Source of the DNA: Mytilus galloprovincialis
Taxonomy: Eukaryota; Mollusca; Bivalvia; Mytilida; Mytilidae
Direction of reading: 5' to 3'
Length of the DNA: 64,000 nucleotides
Assembly: GCF_965363235.1 (NCBI RefSeq)
Contig: NC_134839.1
Coordinates: 54,899,560-54,963,559, forward strand
The translations under genes and the position numbers were made by a program. Below the pieces are notes generated by a model that saw only the letters and a program-made list of their open reading frames with translations, made no database searches and was not told the origin of the DNA. This document shows positions 3,480 to 57,899 of the stretch, piece by piece. Position 1 is the stretch's first letter. Each line of letters begins with the position of its first letter.

Positions 3480-20844
<17,365 letters not shown>

Positions 20845-25661: not shown

Positions 25662-26392
25662 TCATGAAAGGGAAAGTGATTGCAGTAACGACGTAAGGAA
25701 CATATCCGATATTATTTGTGAAACGGTTATTCCATAACAGTCAACCAACTCGTGATGGCGTCCGTAAAATTTACGAAGGAATGATTTCAACTTCACCATT
25801 TGGAACTCTTGGTTTAATAGCTTCCTTGTGAGCAGCAACCCTCTATCAAGAAAATCATGATAGGAAATGCAAGCACGGGAATATCGTATCAATTGGGAGA
25901 TAAATACCCCGTATGCAGGTGCTGCTGGAATGTTGCTACTTAGAAATGGAAAGTTCATAATGGGAAAGCTGAAATCATCTCTTTTGTTGTAAAGTTTTGT
26001 TTTCAAACGACCCTCATTGTCAATATCTAGATGTAAGTCAAGATAAGAGGCTGACTTAACTATATCTGTAGTATCCTTTATCTCTAGTTCGATGGGATAG
26101 ATGCGTTCCACATAGTCACCAAATTTTGAATTATTTAGTGAAAGAACATCATCTATATAGCGGAACGTAGAGTTAAAAGATATTGCTAACTTCTTGTTGT
26201 TCTTCCTAAGAAGTTCCTGCATGAAGTCAGCCTCATAATAATAAAGAAACAAGTCGGCAAGTAGAGGGGTACAGTTTGTTCCCATTGGAATGCCGACAGT
26301 CTGTTGAAAAACACGTCCTCCGAAAGTAACAAATATGCTGTCAATCAAGAAATCAAGCATCTTGATAATATCAGTTTCAGAGAATTTTTTTG
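25662..26392 (-). pseudogene. Penelope-like element: RT catalytic core
   Basis: QQTVGIPMGTNCTPLLADLF, then TFRYIDDVLSLNNSKFGDYV with the DD catalytic pair, then SASYLDLHLDIDNEGRLKTK and YGVFISQLIRYSRACISYHD. An extra A in an A7 run at about 26385 breaks the frame from the upstream piece. Confidence 0.88.
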
Positions 26393-27291
26393 TTTGAATC
26401 AGAGTGATCCTTTACAAAGTAGGATTTATCCCTCCCTAAAACAAGATACTTGATAAATGTTTTAATACTGTTACAAGATGAAAAAAAGTTAGATTGTATG
26501 TACTCTAAAATATCTTTGGATTTTTTAAGTTTCCACATCTGATTCACGCCACCTCTAGAATAGGCAGTTTCACAATAACTTTGAAGCCCGTCTTTGATTG
26601 CTGATAAAATAGATGTCAATAATAATGAAAGAGGTTTCGTGGAGCACTTGGAAGACCCAGCAATATACCGTTGTTTGTAAGGACACTTATGTAGTTTAGG
26701 TATCCAATTGATGGATTTTGGCTCACGATATTTTGCACCTTTAGATAACACATTTCGTAGAGAAGTGTTATTCACAATGTTGAGGTCACCGGTTATAACG
26801 TGGCCAGGAGGATTACATGTGAATTGGTAACTAGCACAAGTGCAATCAGGAGGTTTAGACTTGAAGTCGTCAATATCGAGATCCTGCAAAACGTGTTTGT
26901 AATTGAAAAATTTAGTTGCAATAGGATTGGTATAGGTATAAGAAATGATTGGTACAGACTGGTCTTTGAAATAAGGAGGTATTTTCGATTGAACTAATTT
27001 ATGATGAAGGATATTGCCTTAGTTGACGCCATGGAGAACTTTGTTGGCAAAGGAAAGATTAAGGAAAGATCTTTTCTCTTTTTCATCTTTTCCAACGCGG
27101 ACTGGCTTGAAAAGTCTGTGACTGTCAATATCCGAAATTATAGCTTCAAGTTTGTATTGGTTTGAATTAGGGTTTGTAACAGTGGATTTCAAACATAAAT
27201 TGAACAGAGAATAGAGTTTTGAAAGGAGTAATGAATAAAGTTTCATGTGAATGTGATGAATACCTAACGGCTTTTGTATAAATGGCAGCAT
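26377..27291 (-). pseudogene. Penelope-like element: N-terminal RT region
   Basis: Pieces include LFKPVRVGKDEKEKRSFLNL, a TAA stop near 27009, then ISYTYTNPIATKFFNYKHVL and PPDCTCASYQF. SINWIPKLHKCPYKQRYIAG and STKPLSLLLTSILSAIKDGL follow, then NSIKTF. Sequence expected after SINW and after NSIKTF is missing, consistent with deletions, one of which removes the RT motif-A aspartate. Confidence 0.75.
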
Positions 27292-46700: not shown

Positions 46701-49700
46701 TGTATAATATATAATATAGTACGTGTATAACTTATTGTAACTTGTAACCTTGTTTAAAGAAACCTTGTACAAACCATACTGTTGATAGTTATCAACGGTA
46801 CCAGGCTTATTATTTAATACGCCAGACGCGTGTTTCGTCACACATAAGACTCATCAGTGACGCAGATATCAAAATAGTTAGTGATGACCATAGAACCATT
46901 TTTTCAACATATGTATCAGAGATTAGTTTTTCAGGTTTTTATTTGTGAAATTTCTATTACGTAGTAAAAAAAATATTTGGCATATTGTAGCATAAAAAAA
47001 AGTGAACACAAAATATCACGTTATTTTGGAAGACAGTGAAAATTGTGGTTTGTTGTATGAACGTAGTCACATCCATGTCATTGATAAATCAACACGTGAC
47101 GTTGTTTAATGGGTTTTCTAGTGTATAAGGTCCCGTTAATGGTCTGAAAAATATTAGGTCGTAGGAGGAAAAAGAAAATGTAGAAATTACTGATAATATC
47201 TAATCTAGTATCTATTTTTTGTACACGAATAGCTAAAGTAGTGCAGTTTATTTCAATAATTTATTTTAAGAAGTGAATAAGATAATATGATTATTAGCCA
47301 ATTGTTCCAGTTCAGTTCTATAATTGAATGAAAGCACTAATGTCTTAACCTGTATGTCTTATTTCATTGTATTGGAAACTCAGTGTTATGTATTTTGTAA
47401 GGTCGGTTGTTTTCTATGGGTCCTCCGGCTTCATTCAAAACAAAATTAAAACGGCCGACTTTATAAACGTGCTGAAAGTAGCGTCAAACTAACAAACAAA
47501 AAACTTTTCTATAAATAAATGTTAATATTCTATATTTAGCTTGTCCGAAAAATGCCAGATATAGGACAATTGATGGGTCATGTAATAACTTGAAAAATCC
47601 CACTTGGGGGAAATGTGATATCACTCTGAGAAGATTGACTGACCATCGTGGACATCCAATGGTGGCATACGAAGACGGTAAGAGCTTAAATGCCAGTTAA
47701 AATATAACAAAGAACATTGAAATATACCTATATGAAACAATCCCTGATGCTTAATTTCAGTCGGTATATGTTGAACATATATTTGAGGATATAAAGTCCA
47801 GTACGTTTTTTAATAATTATTCAAAGTTAAAATAAATTTCCGGTTTTGACTATAATTCCCGGGTTTTCAAAAAAAAAAAGGAAAAGTATAAGATTTATTT
47901 TTTCTAGTTTAACATGTTTTTTCATTATAAATGTGCATACATTATGTATGTTTCTGCTGTTGTCTGCTCTATGGTCGGGTTGTTGTCTCTTTAGCACATT
48001 CCCCATTTCCGTTCTCAATTTTAGCTTATTTTGTTACACTTATTATAAAATGAATGACAATAGTTGTATGTGTATCATTTCAAGTCATTTCTGACTGGAA
48101 ATTCATTTTCGAAATTGGCAAATGGAGCATCAAAATGGTCATGGTATATTGTAACTACAAGAACCACGTGGATTGTTAATCATATTTGTTTACTACAAAG
48201 TCTTAAAACGGATGACGAGCACAACACATAGTTCTTTTAAATGTCATATTTTGAAATGTTAATACAGGCATTTTCAATAAATTAATAAACCTTACAAAAT
48301 TGTTAAATATTTATGTTACCCTCCAATCCTTTCTGATACAAAATTGCAATGTCTCAATGTATTAGCGTCATGTTTAAATAGCAGAATTTTCAGGCAATCT
48401 GTTTTTTAATGGATTGTGTTCCATTTCTGAGTGTTACTGCGTGCGAAATCACATTGCAGGTGGTAAATGCATAGCAAGATATGCTTTCCCTGTCGAAGCA
48501 CCAGGTCTCGCTCATGCTGTTCCCTCTGTTTGTCTGTGTTGTTTTTAATTTTTCTTCTTAATCGATTCATAACATTTGAAAATCGGTAAACTATATGTCT
48601 CGTTCTTGTTTACTATGTGTTCATACCCGGTTCAATTCAATATATATGTGATACCATTTTGTACTTTTGACAGGAAAAAGTCTTCCTAGAGGTTACCCGA
48701 ACAAACTACCAAACCCCAGAACTGTCAGCAATTTGGTATCAGATTCGGCTTTAGGACCAAGGAATCAGTATGACCGATGGAGAACTGGAGAGGTCATGTG
48801 TTTCGGTCAACTAATAGCGCATGATTACATTGAAACGGCTCCAGCGGCTGGTAATTTTTGATTGATTTTTTTTTGTATCTGCATGACACTTAGATGCATT
48901 ATTTTGTTGGTTTTGTTTTCTTGTACATTATTCAAAATTGAACTTTTTATAATAAAAAAAACATACATGTGCAGTTTCCCCACACACAAAATGCTATTTT
49001 ATACTTCATACATTTGAAAATAATTACTACGAGATTAATCACTTACATAACTAAGTCAGGCTTTATGTTTATTAACTCTGAATTATAGATTTTCATATGA
49101 AAAATAATTCCATATTCGCTAGTTTAAGAATTTTTTTTTCATATGGAGTATGGATGACAATTTCATTGCATTGTTTTCTTACTTCCGTGGAATCACAATA
49201 TGAATGAAAAGCAGTTTCTTGTATGTTTAGGAAAAAATCATTCTGTTTTACTCTTTAAAATTGCTTAATCTTGAGTTTTTACATATATTTCTTGTAAGAA
49301 TGTGGACATGTATTATAAATACCATTTTCCACTATGGACAGCCAGCTCAATGCAGTTCATATTTACAAATATATCATCATTTTTGTTTGATTTATAAAAT
49401 GAACCTGAACATGATAGGAATATGAATATGGGGGAAATTATCGATATTACTGGGATAACTATGTTAACTTATGGGGGAAATTATCGATATTACTGGGATA
49501 ACTATGTAAACTTATGGGGGAAATTATCGATATTACTGGGATAACTATGTAAACTTATGGGGAAAATTATCGATATTACTGGTATAACTATGTAAACTTA
49601 TGGGGGAAATTATCGATATTACTGGGATAACTATGTAAACTTATTGGGGAAATTATCGATATTACTGGGATAACTATGTTAACTTATTGCATGACTATCT

Positions 49701-52700: not shown

Positions 52701-55700
52701 CAACGAAAAAGTTTTCGAGGAAACTCGCAGAATCATCATAGCTCAACTGCAACACATCGTCTACAACCATTTCTTACCAGCTGTTCTAGACAAACATACC
52801 ATGAGAAAATTTCGCTTGTACTCTAGGAGATGGGGTTATAATAATGTATACAATGATCGAGTCGATGCGTCGATTTTTAGCAGCTTTAGTGGGGCGGCTG
52901 CTCGTTATGGTCATTCTCAAATAATGCCAGATGCGTCCGAATTAAAGAATGATTTTTCTACGGTGATTACTCACAAACTTGAGGACACTTATTTCAATCC
53001 TTATCTAATGCAACAACACTATGGATCAAATATCAAAGATCTTACTAGATGGATTGCTACAAAACAATCACAAAAAGTTGATACGTAAGTACAGTGGTAG
53101 TATATACTTATTATTCATGGGATCATTCGGGACTTTCAAATACTAATATTGAATAATACTAAAGAAAATGCATTTGTTTCTTAATACACACGAATGCCTC
53201 ATAAGAATACGTGAATTGGAAGTAAATAAGGTGTCATTGAAATTTAGCAATGAAATGAATTATTTTTTGAGTAAACAACGATATTACTCAACTTAAGATG
53301 ATTTAATTTAATTTTCCCCATGCCAGTTTTATCGAGTAGGTTAAGATTAAGGAACGATTCTTTTCGTGTCAGGTTATACGCTCACTTAAACTAAGGTAGG
53401 CATTTTAGTTTTCAATACTTTTATACGGACCGTTAGCATTAGTAAATACCTTCTTTAAGAGCGTTTCCTGAATGTTCGTTCTCAGTTAGAGTTGTGATGC
53501 TCCGAATTTTGATGAATGAATCAAATTCCCCGATAACTTTATATCTACTTAAGCTCTACCAGAAAAAAAAACACAACATAGTACAGAATAAACAAATTCT
53601 TGTTATAAAATCAACATTTGAATTTTAACTTGAATTCGTATATTCTTAATCACTCATTTTTTTTTATTAGTTTCTTTGTAGACGCAGTTCGTAATAAACT
53701 ATTCTCGAACAGAAATCCACCAGGTTCAGATCTATTTGCAAGAAATATACAGCGAGGACGTGAAGAAGGACTTCCTGCATACAATGAGTGGAGGAACTAT
53801 TGTGGGCTCAGAAAATTTAGATATTTTCATGAGTTCGGTTATTTTGGATCTAGACTTTCAAGTGTATATAAGTATGATTATTTCTTTCTTCAAAACTCTA
53901 GCTAATATCAGTTTAATGAAAATATTCATATTTGACATTTTCATGATGTGCAAATTTGATAACCAGGATTCTAATTTAACAAAAGGTTATTTTTTTATTT
54001 ATGTATACAACAATGTACGCGGATATCACTGTCAATTACCTTAACGATTAAGGTAACTCGCTGTGTATGTTCAAGAATCATTACCCTTAGAAGAATAAAT
54101 CACATTAGATCTTCAAATTACAAAATGCGTTGTTGTTTCGGTGATACATTTTGTTGTCTCATTTGTATCTTGCGTGTCATCCTCAGAGTAAGAATTTGAT
54201 AACGAACTCAAGTTAGAAAAAAGATAAACTCATGTTGGTGAATCGACAGTTCAGGCTCAAATATACATGTTTCTAGAACAATGTTTTCTTTGCTTTAATA
54301 ATCTGTCGATCCTATTTAACATGTTAATGCAAGTCCACTGTTTGCACTCATCATACTTAAATGCTGGCTGGTTATTTATTACAGCTTTCTCTATTTAAAT
54401 AGCGCAAATTGTAGTGTGCAAGGGCATGTTGGTATACCGGGATTAGAATGTATGTCGCCACATTGTATGATAAAAAATATATAGTTCTTATGTTTGTAAA
54501 CCATTTTTGTCTTTTAATGATGTCTTTGCATGCAGAAACTGATACCTTATTTTCAGTTTCCACTTGAGGTTTTATTCGATATTGTAACTCGGATTTGTTT
54601 TTTTGTCAATCGATTTGTAAGTTTCGAACAGCGGTATACTACTATTTCCTTTACAGTCATATGCACGCATAGCAGCTGATATTTATTATATTCGGGTGTG
54701 CAGTCAAAGCAACATATTGATTTATTTTGTTTTGGGGGTATCTTTTTTTATAATATTTTGAAATGATATTATACTTTACTCATATAATAATTCTTGAAAA
54801 ACTGGTCATTATTGTGATATATGGACTGCCCACAGGACAGTGGTATTGGCTTAATATAGTGATAATGACTGAGCCGAAGGCGAGGTCATTATCGCTGTCG
54901 CAGTCAATACCACTGTCCTACGGGCAGTCCATGCATCACGATAATGACCAGTTTTTCAAGAACTTTTATGTTTATTTCATTGAGAAATCATGTTTTGGAA
55001 AATTCTCATAAATTCAAAATGCCTACAGCGAACTCGAGTAGTTGTACGATTTCTATGGTCAAGAGTGAAGACCAGTCGCAGTAATACTGCCATTCATTTT
55101 AGTGCAATTTTTCAGTATATAAATACTTAATCAAGTTATCTTTAATTTTATAATTAACGAAAACATATAATAAAAATTCAACAACGTAAATATAATATTA
55201 AAAATAAGAACATGTTTTATAAAAGGTGCATCTCTCTAAACAGAGAAACCACGCCCCACCGGTCATTAACACAGAAAACACGCCCAAACGGTCATTATCA
55301 GACGGAAACCACGCTCCAACGGTCATTATCAGACAGAAACCACGCCCACCGGTCATTATCATGTAAAATTCGTTAACAACCGGTTTTCTGGTTCGTTTTT
55401 TTTTCTGTTAATGACCGATGGAATTTATTACTGAAGAATAATGAATGTCATGTGACCCCTTTTTATCCAATAAGAGAATCTTATTCTCAACCGATATGAA
55501 ATAACTTACTTTAATATAGGTCAGTAAACGATGTTGATTTGATACTATACTTTACTTTGAAATAGGTCAGTAAACGATGTTGATTTGACTTTACTTTACT
55601 TTAATATAGGTCAGTAAACGATGTTGATTTGATATTATACTTTACTTTAATATAGGTCAGTAAACAATGTTGATTTGATATTATACTTTACTTTGATATA

Positions 55701-57899
55701 GGTCAGTAAACGATGTTGATTTTACTTTACTTTACTTTAATATAGGTTAGTAAACGATGTAGATTTGATATTATACTTTACTTTGATATAGGTCAGTAAA
55801 CGATGTTGATTTGACTTTACTTTACTTTAATATAGGTCAGTAAACGATGTTGATTTGATATTATACTTTACTTTAATATAGGTCAGTAAACAATGTTGAT
55901 TTGATATTATACTTTACTTTGATATAGGTCAGTAAACGATGTTGATTTGATTGTCGGTGCACTTTTAGAGAAGGGAAGACGTGGAAGCGTTGGTCCAACC
56001 TTTGCTTGTATATTGGGTATACAGTATCATCGTTTAAAGGTTGGCGACAGATATTGGTACGAATCACATGACCGTCTCTTTGCTTTCACAAAAGGTAAAT
56101 TTGACTCATAGAAATTTTACCAAAAGCAGAAAATTAGGATAAATGATATTTATATTTATATTATCTATTTTACAGGTGTTTTTTATTTTCCGATTGCCTT
56201 GACACTTAAAATCAAATCAATAAAAAATTCTTCAGAACAAGATAATATTTTGCAAATAATATTTTTTTCACAAGTGTCAAATATTGTTTTGTTGTTGTTA
56301 CAATCGATTTAAACTGTGCAGCATTTTCACAACTGTATACAAACTTGTAAAACGAACTTTTTTTTAACCATTTATGAATATGATTTTAAAATCTATTTCC
56401 AGCTCAGTTGAACTCTATTAAAAGAGCCACTTCATTATCGAAAATATGGTGTACAAACTTTGGTATTGAGTATATACAAAAGAACATATTCAAAATTCCA
56501 CGCAGATCTAAGTAAGTAAATCTTTATCGTCAATATATTTGGTTGACATCAATGTGTAAAAGTTTTTAGAATCAAGTCGAAATGTATTTCCTCCAATTTC
56601 CGACAAATGGATATTTTATTTAATCTACTGACATTGTGGTAATATATTATTTTAATGTAAAGGTCGTTTGATGTTAGCAATCGACAAGTAATCAATTTAA
56701 AAAGGGAAGAAGGTATTAAAGAAACAACCACACCACTAAGTTCGGTGAGAAGTGCACCATGGAAAAAAGAAAAAAGGATAAGACAAATATGTCTGCGAAA
56801 CACTACAAAACTAAAGATTGACCAACAAACCTGCATGAACTTGAGTTATGCGGATGTCTGCTTTCCTAGTGACAGTGGTATTGCAAACATCAATTAAAAA
56901 CAAAAAAAATGAAGCTAAAATTAAAGAGCAATAAAAATATTTATTTGTAAATCTTAAACAAGGAACACTGTCTTCTTTCCCCTATCGTTGTTTTATATTT
57001 TAAAACAGGTTCCGGGCTTTATCTTCAAAAATATTACAAACACTCACCAAAGATACCAGTCTTATAATTTGGTATGCCAGCAATTCGTTTCGTCTACATA
57101 GGACTGGTCAGTGGCGTTCGAATCAACACAGTTGGAAGAACAAATAAAATGCGAAGACGCATCAAGAGCATTAAAACCGAAATTTTCGAAAACTAAAAAC
57201 CTTTTGACCTAAATGCTTGATTCATGTCATTTTCAGTTTTGGTGAACAAATGAATATAAATTGTATAAAATGTATAATATTTCCCGTTCATATGTCTCAT
57301 ACCCGCCAACTGTCACTATTTGCGGGGGTTTTCCCAATGGAGGCTCCCAAGTGGCAATTTTGTAAGAGCAATTTTGTCCACTATTTTAAAGAAAACAATT
57401 AATTTAACAATGGCTATGAGCTTGTTAAAGCACGAAGAAACTAAAAAAACCACATTAGAATATATTTGAAGGCCCTCTTGAAGGTTTTGTAGGACTATAA
57501 GAACCATCTTTCACGTAAAACCCCCATTGGCATTTTGAAAAGTTGGCAGGTATGATGTCTCTTAGAATATAAAGGAACACCCCAAGTTGTAATATGAATA
57601 ATCAAATACAAACGATTATGGACTCTTTTTTTCTACATTTCAAATAAATAACTCTTTCTGTGACAAAAATCTTGATTGATTTCTAAGAGTTTAATACAAT
57701 TTTGTTTGATTATGTGAGTGTGTTACAAATATATTATACTTGTCTTTAGGATATGAAATTAATATTGTATGTTTTTACTTTCAGTAAACTGCGACATTGT
57801 AAGAGAATTCGAGACATTAACTTGTACTTGTGGAAAGACCATAGTTGTGCTTCTAGTTCTTATCACCAAGTTTACTCGGGTAAACGTTATTCAAAATAA
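40714..57899 (+). CDS. perxB: secreted animal haem peroxidase, 13 coding exons (full span)
   Basis: Exons of 42, 31, 138, 177, 40, 110, 102, 93, 493, 201, 167, 109 and 115 nt join in frame into 605 residues plus a stop. A signal peptide (about residues 1-22) leads into the peroxidase domain, which begins at CPKNARYRTIDGSCNN. Landmarks are FGQLIAHD (114-121, distal His120), TSYIDAS (189-195, Ca2+ loop), Arg248, REHN, RYGH (proximal His352) and NIQRGREEG. Exon 9 looks roughly 60% identical to perxA by eye. Ala119 replaces the haem-ester Asp, and Val251-Val252 replace the Glu-Met pair of myeloperoxidase. Neither ester link to haem can form, so the haem would be non-covalent or the activity altered. 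An acceptor ends 5 nt before the ATG, exactly as in perxA, implying a 5' UTR intron. Exon 11 is preceded by a ten-copy array of its own acceptor. No stop or frameshift was seen, so I treat it as intact. The substrate is unknown. Confidence 0.9.
42405..42570 (-). mobile_element. 3'-end fragment of a Penelope-like element
   Basis: GGCGAAAGATACCAAGGGGTCA and GGGTGATCTCAGGTGCTTG match the tail of the element at 25385. Confidence 0.6.
42862..42932 (+). repeat. Dispersed repeat, TTGTCTGTTCTATGGTCG family
   Basis: CTGCTGTTGTCTGTTCTATGG then TTGTTGTCTCTTT; a second copy lies at 47955..48022. Confidence 0.7.
43156..43330 (-). pseudogene. Harbinger-type transposase fragment
   Basis: The minus-strand frame reads NITVAEITPCNLQYFVNRGY then ICLDGLNIYVTVCD and a stop. 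It resembles the 'FVNRKGYHSxNVQxVCD' signature of HARBI1-like transposases. Only this block is recognisable. Confidence 0.4.
43822..43852 (+). CDS. perxB exon 2 (end of signal peptide)
   Basis: A 31-nt exon after a pyrimidine-rich acceptor (TTTCATTTCAG) and before donor GTAATG. It encodes IFIATALSPI, phase 0 to 1, and completes the signal peptide. Confidence 0.8.
43990..44110 (-). mobile_element. Hammerhead-ribozyme repeat, diverged fragment
   Basis: GGTTTCATCTACAAAGGACT and CACCAGTGACG align with the ribozyme region, with several core changes. Confidence 0.5.
45095..45215 (+). repeat. GGTATGATTGCCAATGAGAC family, best copy
   Basis: GTGGTATGATTGCCAATGAG, CAAAATGACACAGACATTAA and CGACCTTCAATAATGAGCAA. 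No coding capacity; related pieces at 28862 and 39551. Confidence 0.65.
45334..45480 (+). repeat. Retroelement 3'-tail-like repeat, copy 2
   Basis: TTTCCATCAGTTTTAGTTTG and GAACAGCGGTATACTACTGT then TGCCTTTATTTA, as at 35091. Confidence 0.6.
45985..46260 (-). mobile_element. Hammerhead-ribozyme repeat, copy 10
   Basis: A well-conserved partial copy from GTTATCAAAGGTACAAGG to TTCATGTCAACACCG, in perxB intron 2. Confidence 0.88.
46016..46059 (-). ncRNA. Hammerhead ribozyme (full core, perfect stem I)
   Basis: GCGTCA-CTGATGA-stem II-GAAACGCGCGTC-TGGCGT, the same as the motif at 15127. Confidence 0.85.
46440..46582. repeat. ~20-bp minisatellite
   Basis: Repeats of CATAGATCTTGCGTGCATCA with substitutions, in perxB intron 2. 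Confidence 0.8.
46651..46736. repeat. 43-bp perfect tandem duplication
   Basis: GTTAACATGTATAATATATA then ATATAGTACGTGTATAACTT, repeated twice without a difference. Confidence 0.95.
46787..46880 (-). mobile_element. Hammerhead-ribozyme repeat, copy 11 (mutated)
   Basis: ACGCCAGACGCGTGTTTCGTC changes stem III (GAAACACGCGTC) and stem II is one base longer. Confidence 0.75.
47540..47677 (+). CDS. perxB exon 3 (start of peroxidase domain)
   Basis: Acceptor TATATTTAG, donor GTAAGA, phase 1 to 1. It encodes CPKNARYRTIDGSCNN, NPTWGKC and HPMVAYEDG. Confidence 0.92.
47955..48022 (+). repeat. Dispersed repeat, TTGTCTGCTCTATGGTCG family
   Basis: A second copy of the repeat at 42862, in perxB intron 3. 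Confidence 0.7.
48674..48850 (+). CDS. perxB exon 4 (distal haem side)
   Basis: Acceptor TTTTGACAG, donor GTAATT, phase 1 to 1. It encodes GKSLPRGYPNKLPNPRTVSN through FGQLIAHDYIET. Distal Gln, His and Ca2+ Asp are present; the haem-ester Asp is Ala. Confidence 0.93.
49430..49687. repeat. 43-bp minisatellite, six copies, perxB intron 4
   Basis: Unit GGGGGAAATTATCGATATTA then CTGGGATAACTATGTAAAC. Starts at 49430, 49473, 49516, 49559, 49602 and 49645 are spaced exactly 43 bp. The array ends about 30 bp before exon 5. Confidence 0.97.
49719..49758 (+). CDS. perxB exon 5
   Basis: A 40-nt micro-exon: acceptor TTTTTATAG, donor GTAAGA, phase 1 to 2, encoding VNCCNNKDPHFG. A 43-bp minisatellite ends about 30 bp upstream of it. 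Confidence 0.88.
50000..50109 (+). CDS. perxB exon 6
   Basis: Acceptor TTTGTTTCAG, donor GTATGT, phase 2 to 1. It encodes IDVCFPFNIPAGDSSFPPSC and KNFVRSKAAP, aligning without gaps to perxA exon 6. Confidence 0.9.
50110..51203. other. perxB intron 6
   Basis: Nothing recognised. Confidence 0.55.
51204..51305 (+). CDS. perxB exon 7 (Ca2+ loop)
   Basis: Acceptor ATTTTGCAG, donor GTAAGT, phase 1 to 1. It encodes YREQVNLITSYIDASFLYGS. Thr189, Tyr191 (backbone), Asp193 and Ser195 fit the peroxidase Ca2+ site. Confidence 0.92.
51306..51925. other. perxB intron 7
   Basis: Nothing recognised. Confidence 0.55.
51926..52018 (+). CDS. perxB exon 8
   Basis: Acceptor CTTTCAACAG, donor GTAAGT, phase 1 to 1. 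It encodes LMKVDRGNILPSIAGGGCLK and VRCPFAG. Confidence 0.9.
52019..52591. other. perxB intron 8
   Basis: Nothing recognised. Confidence 0.55.
52592..53084 (+). CDS. perxB exon 9 (catalytic Arg, proximal His)
   Basis: Acceptor ATCTTCTAG, donor GTAAGT, phase 1 to 2. It encodes GDSRSVVVPYLS (Arg248 kept; Val251-Val252 where myeloperoxidase has Glu-Met), NHLLYVREHNRLS, ETRRIIIAQLQHI and ARYGHSQIM with proximal His352. Confidence 0.95.
53085..53670. other. perxB intron 9
   Basis: Nothing recognised. Confidence 0.55.
53671..53871 (+). CDS. perxB exon 10
   Basis: Acceptor TTTTTATTAG, donor GTATGA, phase 2 to 2. It encodes PPGSDLFARNIQRGREEGLP and AYNEWRNYCGLRKF. The usual RDHG/RDQG Asp after NIQRGR is Glu here. 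Confidence 0.94.
54585..54660 (+). repeat. Retroelement 3'-tail-like repeat, fragment
   Basis: GTAACTCGGATTTGTTTTTT and GAACAGCGGTATACTACTAT, as at 35091 and 45334. Confidence 0.55.
54791..54965. mobile_element. Long foldback element in perxB intron 10
   Basis: TTCTTGAAAAACTGGTCATT on the left faces AATGACCAGTTTTTCAAGAA on the right. The arms continue through GGACTGCCC and AGGACAGTGGTATTG for about 80 bp each. Confidence 0.85.
55240..55365. repeat. ~35-bp minisatellite, four copies
   Basis: Unit AAACCACGCCCACCGGTCAT then TATCAGACAG. A related single unit in reverse orientation lies near 8650. Confidence 0.8.
55501..55951 (+). repeat. Ten-copy 44/46-bp array of the perxB exon-11 splice acceptor
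   Basis: Each unit carries TTTACTTTRATATAG|GTCAGTAAAC followed by GATGTTGATTTG. The GTCAG starts lie at 55520, 55566, 55610, 55656, 55702, 55746 (GTTAG), 55792, 55836, 55882 and 55928, spaced 46 or 44 bp. The last copy is the real intron-exon junction. Upstream copies read into TAG or TAA if used. Confidence 0.95.
55928..56094 (+). CDS. perxB exon 11 (last of ten repeated acceptors)
   Basis: Acceptor TTTGATATAG, donor GTAAAT, phase 2 to 1. It encodes SVNDVDLIVGALLEKGRRGS, VGPTFACILGIQY and KVGDRYWYES. The first 24 nt plus the acceptor are the unit of an upstream array. Only the start at 55928 gives an open frame and a length (167 nt) equal to perxA exon 11. Confidence 0.9.
56403..56511 (+). 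CDS. perxB exon 12
   Basis: Acceptor TATTTCCAG, donor GTAAGT, phase 1 to 2. It encodes AQLNSIKRATSLSKIWCTNF and IQKNIFKIPRRSK, matching perxA exon 12; its acceptor is not duplicated. Confidence 0.92.
57050..57200 (-). mobile_element. Hammerhead-ribozyme repeat, copy 12 (mutated)
   Basis: AGATACCAGTCTTATAATTT and TTTCGTCTACATAGGACTGG; CTGATGA reads CTGACCA on the ribozyme strand. Confidence 0.65.
57299..57554. mobile_element. 256-bp MITE with 7-bp target duplication
   Basis: It starts ATACCCGCCAACT and ends AGTTGGCAGGTATG. It is flanked by ATGTCTC at 57292..57298 and 57555..57561. It lies in perxB intron 12. Confidence 0.8.
57785..57899 (+). CDS. perxB exon 13 (C-terminus and stop)
   Basis: Acceptor ACTTTCAG. 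It encodes KLRHCKRIRDINLYLWKDHS and a Ser/Tyr/Lys-rich tail, ending at TAA. An AATAAA overlaps the stop (57895..57900) and is too close to be a convincing poly(A) signal by itself. Confidence 0.92.

Follow-up and report, generated by a model that had tools for sequence, protein, structure and literature searches.

The second of two related animal haem-peroxidase genes in a 64,000-nucleotide stretch of the Mytilus galloprovincialis genome (hereafter the window) contains a minisatellite made of ten copies of one of its own intron-exon junctions. We think it probable, at roughly three chances in four, that this array is a near-neutral minisatellite of the type described in amphioxus under the name of mirages, with the extra copies absorbed into the intron and the copy attached to the exon being the one used, rather than a splicing switch. 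Across the peroxidase family, junctions are duplicated at about the rate of intronic sequence and at several times the rate of exons. The window has a G+C content of 31.5% and lies on a 115.9-Mb contig of the 1.385-Gb genome; four joined exons of the array-bearing gene match PF03098 at 1.2e-96. The locations of the features are collected in Table 1.

A ten-copy array of an acceptor junction

Tandem Repeats Finder (TRF) reports 9.8 copies of 46 bp at 55506-55951 with a score of 752 (reporting threshold 50), and the first exon-side bases of the ten copies are at 55520, 55566, 55610, 55656, 55702, 55746, 55792, 55836, 55882 and 55928, giving successive spacings of 46, 44, 46, 46, 44, 46, 44, 46 and 46 bp. 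The array has several features. First, the tandem repeat spans the exon-intron boundary, and its exon part is the genuine start of a peroxidase exon, with ACGATGTTGATTTG in common with the paralogous exon at 18620. An earlier note on this DNA had proposed that the repeat unit is the junction itself, in ten copies of 44 or 46 bp, and the TRF result, the unit listing and the shared exon start all bear this out. Second, the acceptor motif varies between copies: TTTGATATAG, which the note gave for the unit as a whole, is present in three of the ten (55702, 55792 and 55928), the other seven carrying TTTAATATAG (six copies) or TTTGAAATAG (one), and its figure of 24 exon bases does not hold for the 44-bp units, which have about 22. 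Third, the units are 94% identical on average in pairwise comparisons of a 39-bp stretch, and the segments 55506-55722 and 55732-55948 are 98% identical, from which we deduce that a block of 226 bp (five units) was duplicated during the history of the array. Fourth, the array sequence has a single matching place in the genome, and the exact 28-base pattern of the unit has five genome matches, every one of them inside the array. Finally, the ancestral segment is bounded by an intronic and an exonic TGAT motif 46 bp apart, an arrangement that suggests duplication at short homology.

It is conceivable that the repeat was expanded or collapsed during assembly, given that the sequence comes from one assembly and that assemblers can create features such as the 226-bp block duplication, with its 98% identity. 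However, the individual units differ among themselves at several positions, and since four further junctions in related genes carry arrays built of other units, we regard an artefact as very improbable.

Duplication of junctions, introns and exons in the peroxidase family

An exon search of the genome returned 48 matches, on contigs C1-C14 only, of which the 30 given as loci were surveyed. Up to four exons were annotated per gene in 28 fetched stretches plus the window, yielding 179 junctions (94 acceptors and 85 donors); a junction was retained only if its match extended to the end of the exon within fixed limits, and two hits internal to the array of locus L041 were removed. Among the other 18 matches, L052 was examined, at its acceptor. 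A copy within 1 kb was found for six of the 179 junctions (3.4%), five as tandem arrays and one as a spaced copy, leaving 173 without one. The corresponding figures are 145 of 3388 intronic positions (4.3%) and nine of 1253 exonic positions (0.7%), and a control with shuffled flanks gave 0/179. Bootstrapping by locus places the difference between junction and intron at -0.028 to +0.008 and that between junction and exon at +0.006 to +0.049.

The values are similar under six settings: the junction count stays at 6/179, while intronic rates range from 3.8 to 4.7% and exonic rates from 0.5 to 0.9%. With the window left out, the counts are 4/163 junctions and 120/3084 intronic positions; the near-identical paralogues L043-L045 were counted separately, and leaving out L044 and L045 gives 6/171 junctions. 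All exonic hits are found either next to a duplicated junction (four of the six have such hits) or within the duplicated exon of L034, and an initial exon control at two offsets gave 1/358.

Both kinds of boundary are affected. Acceptors are amplified ten-, 13- and two-fold (the array described above, L048, and the neighbouring peroxidase gene of the window) and donors seven- and 24-fold (L041 and L035), whereas L052, a nearby paralogue of the 13-copy L048 gene, has a single acceptor at the same exon. No stop codon interrupts the annotated exons of the five array-bearing genes (at most four per gene, and two for L048). The earlier note held that splice sites inside satellite units are rare, which is difficult to reconcile with five tandem arrays among 179 junctions and with a phenomenon that already has a name in amphioxus. 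A 30-bp repeat in L030 was considered as a further acceptor array and set aside, as it lies at no annotated junction. In L012/L040 (the same place) and in L026 there is a stop inside the homologous exon, and these may be pseudogenes.

Table 1. Features of the array-bearing gene, its neighbour and related peroxidase loci. Positions are those of the window unless a locus is named; a slash marks the splice site.
Feature	Position	Strand	Details and basis
Preceding coding exon	53671..53871	+	Ends ATATAA/GTATGA, phase 2; translation and tblastn with the paralogue
Intron, 2056 bp given the last acceptor	53872..55927	+	Donor after 53871, acceptor before 55928
Coding exon opening with the last array copy, animal haem peroxidase	55928..56094	+	Begins SVNDVDLIVGALLEK
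Intron-exon junction minisatellite, ten copies of 46/44 bp	55506..55951	+	TRF, repeat finder, unit listing
Nine upstream acceptor copies (range of first exon-side bases)	55520..55882	+	Each leads to a premature stop; joined translations; acceptor scores 3.8-7.7
Detached left part of first unit	54764..54780	+	TGATATTATACTTTACT, ending TTACT (54776-54780); identical to unit sequence
Inserted repeated element, about 725 bp	54781..55505	.	Genome DNA search, flanks
Second junction duplication, acceptor plus exon start, neighbouring peroxidase gene	19025..19134	+	Two 53-bp copies (exon-side 19052, 19105); TRF, junction test, scores
Acceptor minisatellite, 13 copies	L048, about 4180-5030		Different 65-bp unit, at the homologous exon
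Donor array, seven copies	L041		Mostly 69-bp units
Donor minisatellite, 24 copies	L035, 2960-3963		43-44 bp, CTC/GTGAGT or CCC/GTGAGT, at the end of another peroxidase exon
Spaced junction copy	L034		97 bp, 382 bp upstream, 90%

Consequences of acceptor choice

When each copy is joined to the preceding exon, only that at 55928 leaves the reading frame open, and all nine upstream copies run into a stop within one or two units. The authentic boundary remains at the exon-attached copy, with its frame intact across the four exons examined, and the earlier note is supported in its description of nine acceptor copies ahead of the real one whose use would truncate the protein. Acceptors and donors were scored with weight matrices built from the peroxidase family (93 acceptors, with the target left out, and 85 donors). 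By these the last copy obtains a score of 6.8, which places it in the 24th percentile of the family acceptors.

Several observations weigh against the view that the array is a near-neutral passenger. First, relative to the last copy, five of the upstream copies score higher (7.4-7.7), two equally and two lower (5.2 and 3.8), and another intronic AG, with its exon-side base at 54657, exceeds every copy in the array with a score of 10.6. Strength by this simple measure therefore gives the last copy no advantage. Second, every upstream copy retains its AG, and mutational silencing of the decoys is thus not in evidence. Third, the rate of junction duplication rests on only six events, with test positions within one locus that are not independent of each other. 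Fourth, the survey covers a single gene family, and 30 of its 48 matches. Variation was also tabulated per column in four arrays, with a view to selection on the decoy splice sites. The splice dinucleotides are constant, but the arrays are internally too alike to reveal more, and the units of the array-bearing second gene (gene B), L041 and L035 in that table were chosen by motif.

Retention of AG in all nine decoys, each of which would introduce a stop, together with the five that outscore the last copy, speaks for regulated unproductive splicing, in which the length of the array would set the use of decoy acceptors and thereby tune the amount of full-length peroxidase. The earlier note took this view, proposing a length-variable control of productive splicing. 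Nonetheless, comparable arrays are found at donors and at other exons, at close to the background intronic rate; the gene at L052 lacks an array, as do 173 of the 179 surveyed junctions; and published mirages of amphioxus are reported to splice normally (PMC3087553, PMC3902484). The proposal of length-variable control therefore finds no support in these comparisons, and we consider regulation of this kind improbable.

A different possibility arises from the sequence following each AG. The unit continues directly into a donor-like GTCAGT (GTTAGT in one copy), so that all ten copies read AG/GT, and the ten donor-like sites are the best-scoring in the intron, nine in the 59th percentile and one in the 71st of the 85 family donors. 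Once an upstream copy had been joined to the preceding exon, the recreated 5′ splice site would score 7.0 (7.7 for one copy), and the natural donor itself scores 7.0. This arrangement allows recursive splicing, in which use of an upstream copy would recreate a 5′ splice site, and a further splice from there to a later copy would put the error right; the array might then be a self-correcting ladder, whose nine poison acceptors would be tolerated through serial recursive splicing. However, the GT is merely the exon's own first two bases, and the acceptor arrays of L048 (AG/AAGCGT) and of the neighbouring gene (AG/ATCAGC) have no AG/GT. Recursive-splicing ratchet points carry a strong acceptor, and those described in Drosophila lie in long introns, whereas here an intron of only 2056 bp ends in a weak acceptor (among 93 family acceptors the last copy is in the 24th percentile). 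We thus view recursive splicing as an unlikely explanation, and its elaboration into a self-correcting ladder as equally doubtful.

An element inserted into the first unit

The first unit of the array is split. The element that separates its two parts has a palindromic portion at about 54784-54969 plus 31-bp repeats, and TTACT is present on either side of it (54776-54780 and 55506-55510), probably as a target-site duplication. Joining 54780 to 55511 onward restores a complete unit beginning with TGAT at 54764, wherever within TTACT the element starts, and since the element splits the first unit the original left end of the array lay near 54764. The first duplication probably predates the insertion, because the units downstream of the element are contiguous. 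A template-switch origin of the spacer as copied filler DNA was entertained on account of the 17-base unit match at 54764, about 850 bp upstream, and was dropped when the intervening stretch proved to be the repeated element that interrupts the first unit.

A whole-genome DNA search returned 652 candidate copies of the element, of which 40 were scored; these comprise the window element and 39 others, near full length and at 91-95% identity. The right end falls at 55504 or 55505 in all 40 scored rows. The left end corresponds to 54782 in 20 of the 39 other copies and falls between query bases 60 and 92 in the remaining 19, and with this variability it is not fixed to the base. Near-full-length copies of the element thus number at least 40 genome-wide.

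The window has other features of note. At 6891-7124 a perfect run of 62 ATG triplets is followed by about 16.7 copies of TGG. Two long open reading frames on the minus strand at 25662-27018 resemble a retroelement reverse transcriptase by eye, and parts of them have relatives in several of the fetched peroxidase loci. A 43-bp array at 49427-49687, read by eye only, lies where the exons of the gene are without annotation, and it may also be linked to a junction.

Relationship to known systems

The amphioxus studies describe mirages as minisatellite-like tandem duplications of intron-exon boundaries, at both 5′ and 3′ sites, in which many copies keep the AG or GT (PMC3087553, PMC3902484). They are present in Adh3, in the globin genes BflGb6 and BflGb9 and in TnC, with similar repeats in PGBD5, and have units of 150-160 bp in BflGb6 and 10-72 bp in Adh3 (PMC3087553, PMC3902484). 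They are reported not to interfere with regular splicing (PMC3087553, PMC3902484), and those of Adh and TnC are said to generate no aberrant mRNAs (PMC3902484). The peroxidase array resembles them in being a tandem repeat that spans the boundary and retains AG, and in belonging to a family in which both boundary types are affected. It differs in its host, a mussel, in its 44-46 bp unit, and in having a repeated element inside its first unit.

In the human CBS 844ins68 allele, splicing is reported to show a strong preference for the more distal of the duplicated sites, and normal mRNA is made (PMC2630376, PMC1334203). That allele is a known human polymorphism with one extra copy, whereas the peroxidase array has nine. 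An interferon-induced minisatellite is also said, judging from the title of the paper, to have splice sites inside its units, although these are donors and those here are acceptors. Variable tandem repeats at exon-intron boundaries have been described for human duplicated genes, with 27 intron modifications kept after inspection of 162 alignments, but the repeats in that study form new introns (PMC2812944), whereas the position of the peroxidase intron is unchanged. Literature found under the mirage name concerns amphioxus only, and among the matches listed under mussel, bivalve and oyster terms there was no title on junction minisatellites in a mollusc.

A model for the origin and persistence of the array

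We infer the following order of events, route of expansion, choice of acceptor and neutrality. A 46-bp segment that straddled the border of intron and exon, with a TGAT motif on either side, would have been duplicated in tandem, and the array would then have grown by unequal exchange or slippage, including the duplication of the 226-bp block; insertion of the repeated element into the first unit would be a later step. Since the remainder of the exon follows the last copy alone, each copy added upstream would lengthen the intron and leave the coding sequence whole. The spliceosome would mostly take the last copy and discard the others as intron, a view favoured by the reports on amphioxus mirages and CBS 844ins68, and use of an upstream copy would give a truncated transcript that is probably prone to decay. 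Junction arrays would thus persist as nearly neutral sequences, like other intronic repeats.

If the peroxidase array is indeed such a mirage, then these minisatellites extend from amphioxus to a bivalve genome, and the survey provides a first rate for them: within one gene family, junctions are duplicated about as often as the neighbouring introns and several times as often as exons. Such a rate agrees with a simple rule under which duplications across a splice junction are tolerated because the surplus copy turns into intron. Being nearly identical, the competing acceptors would also constitute a natural test of how the spliceosome chooses among them.
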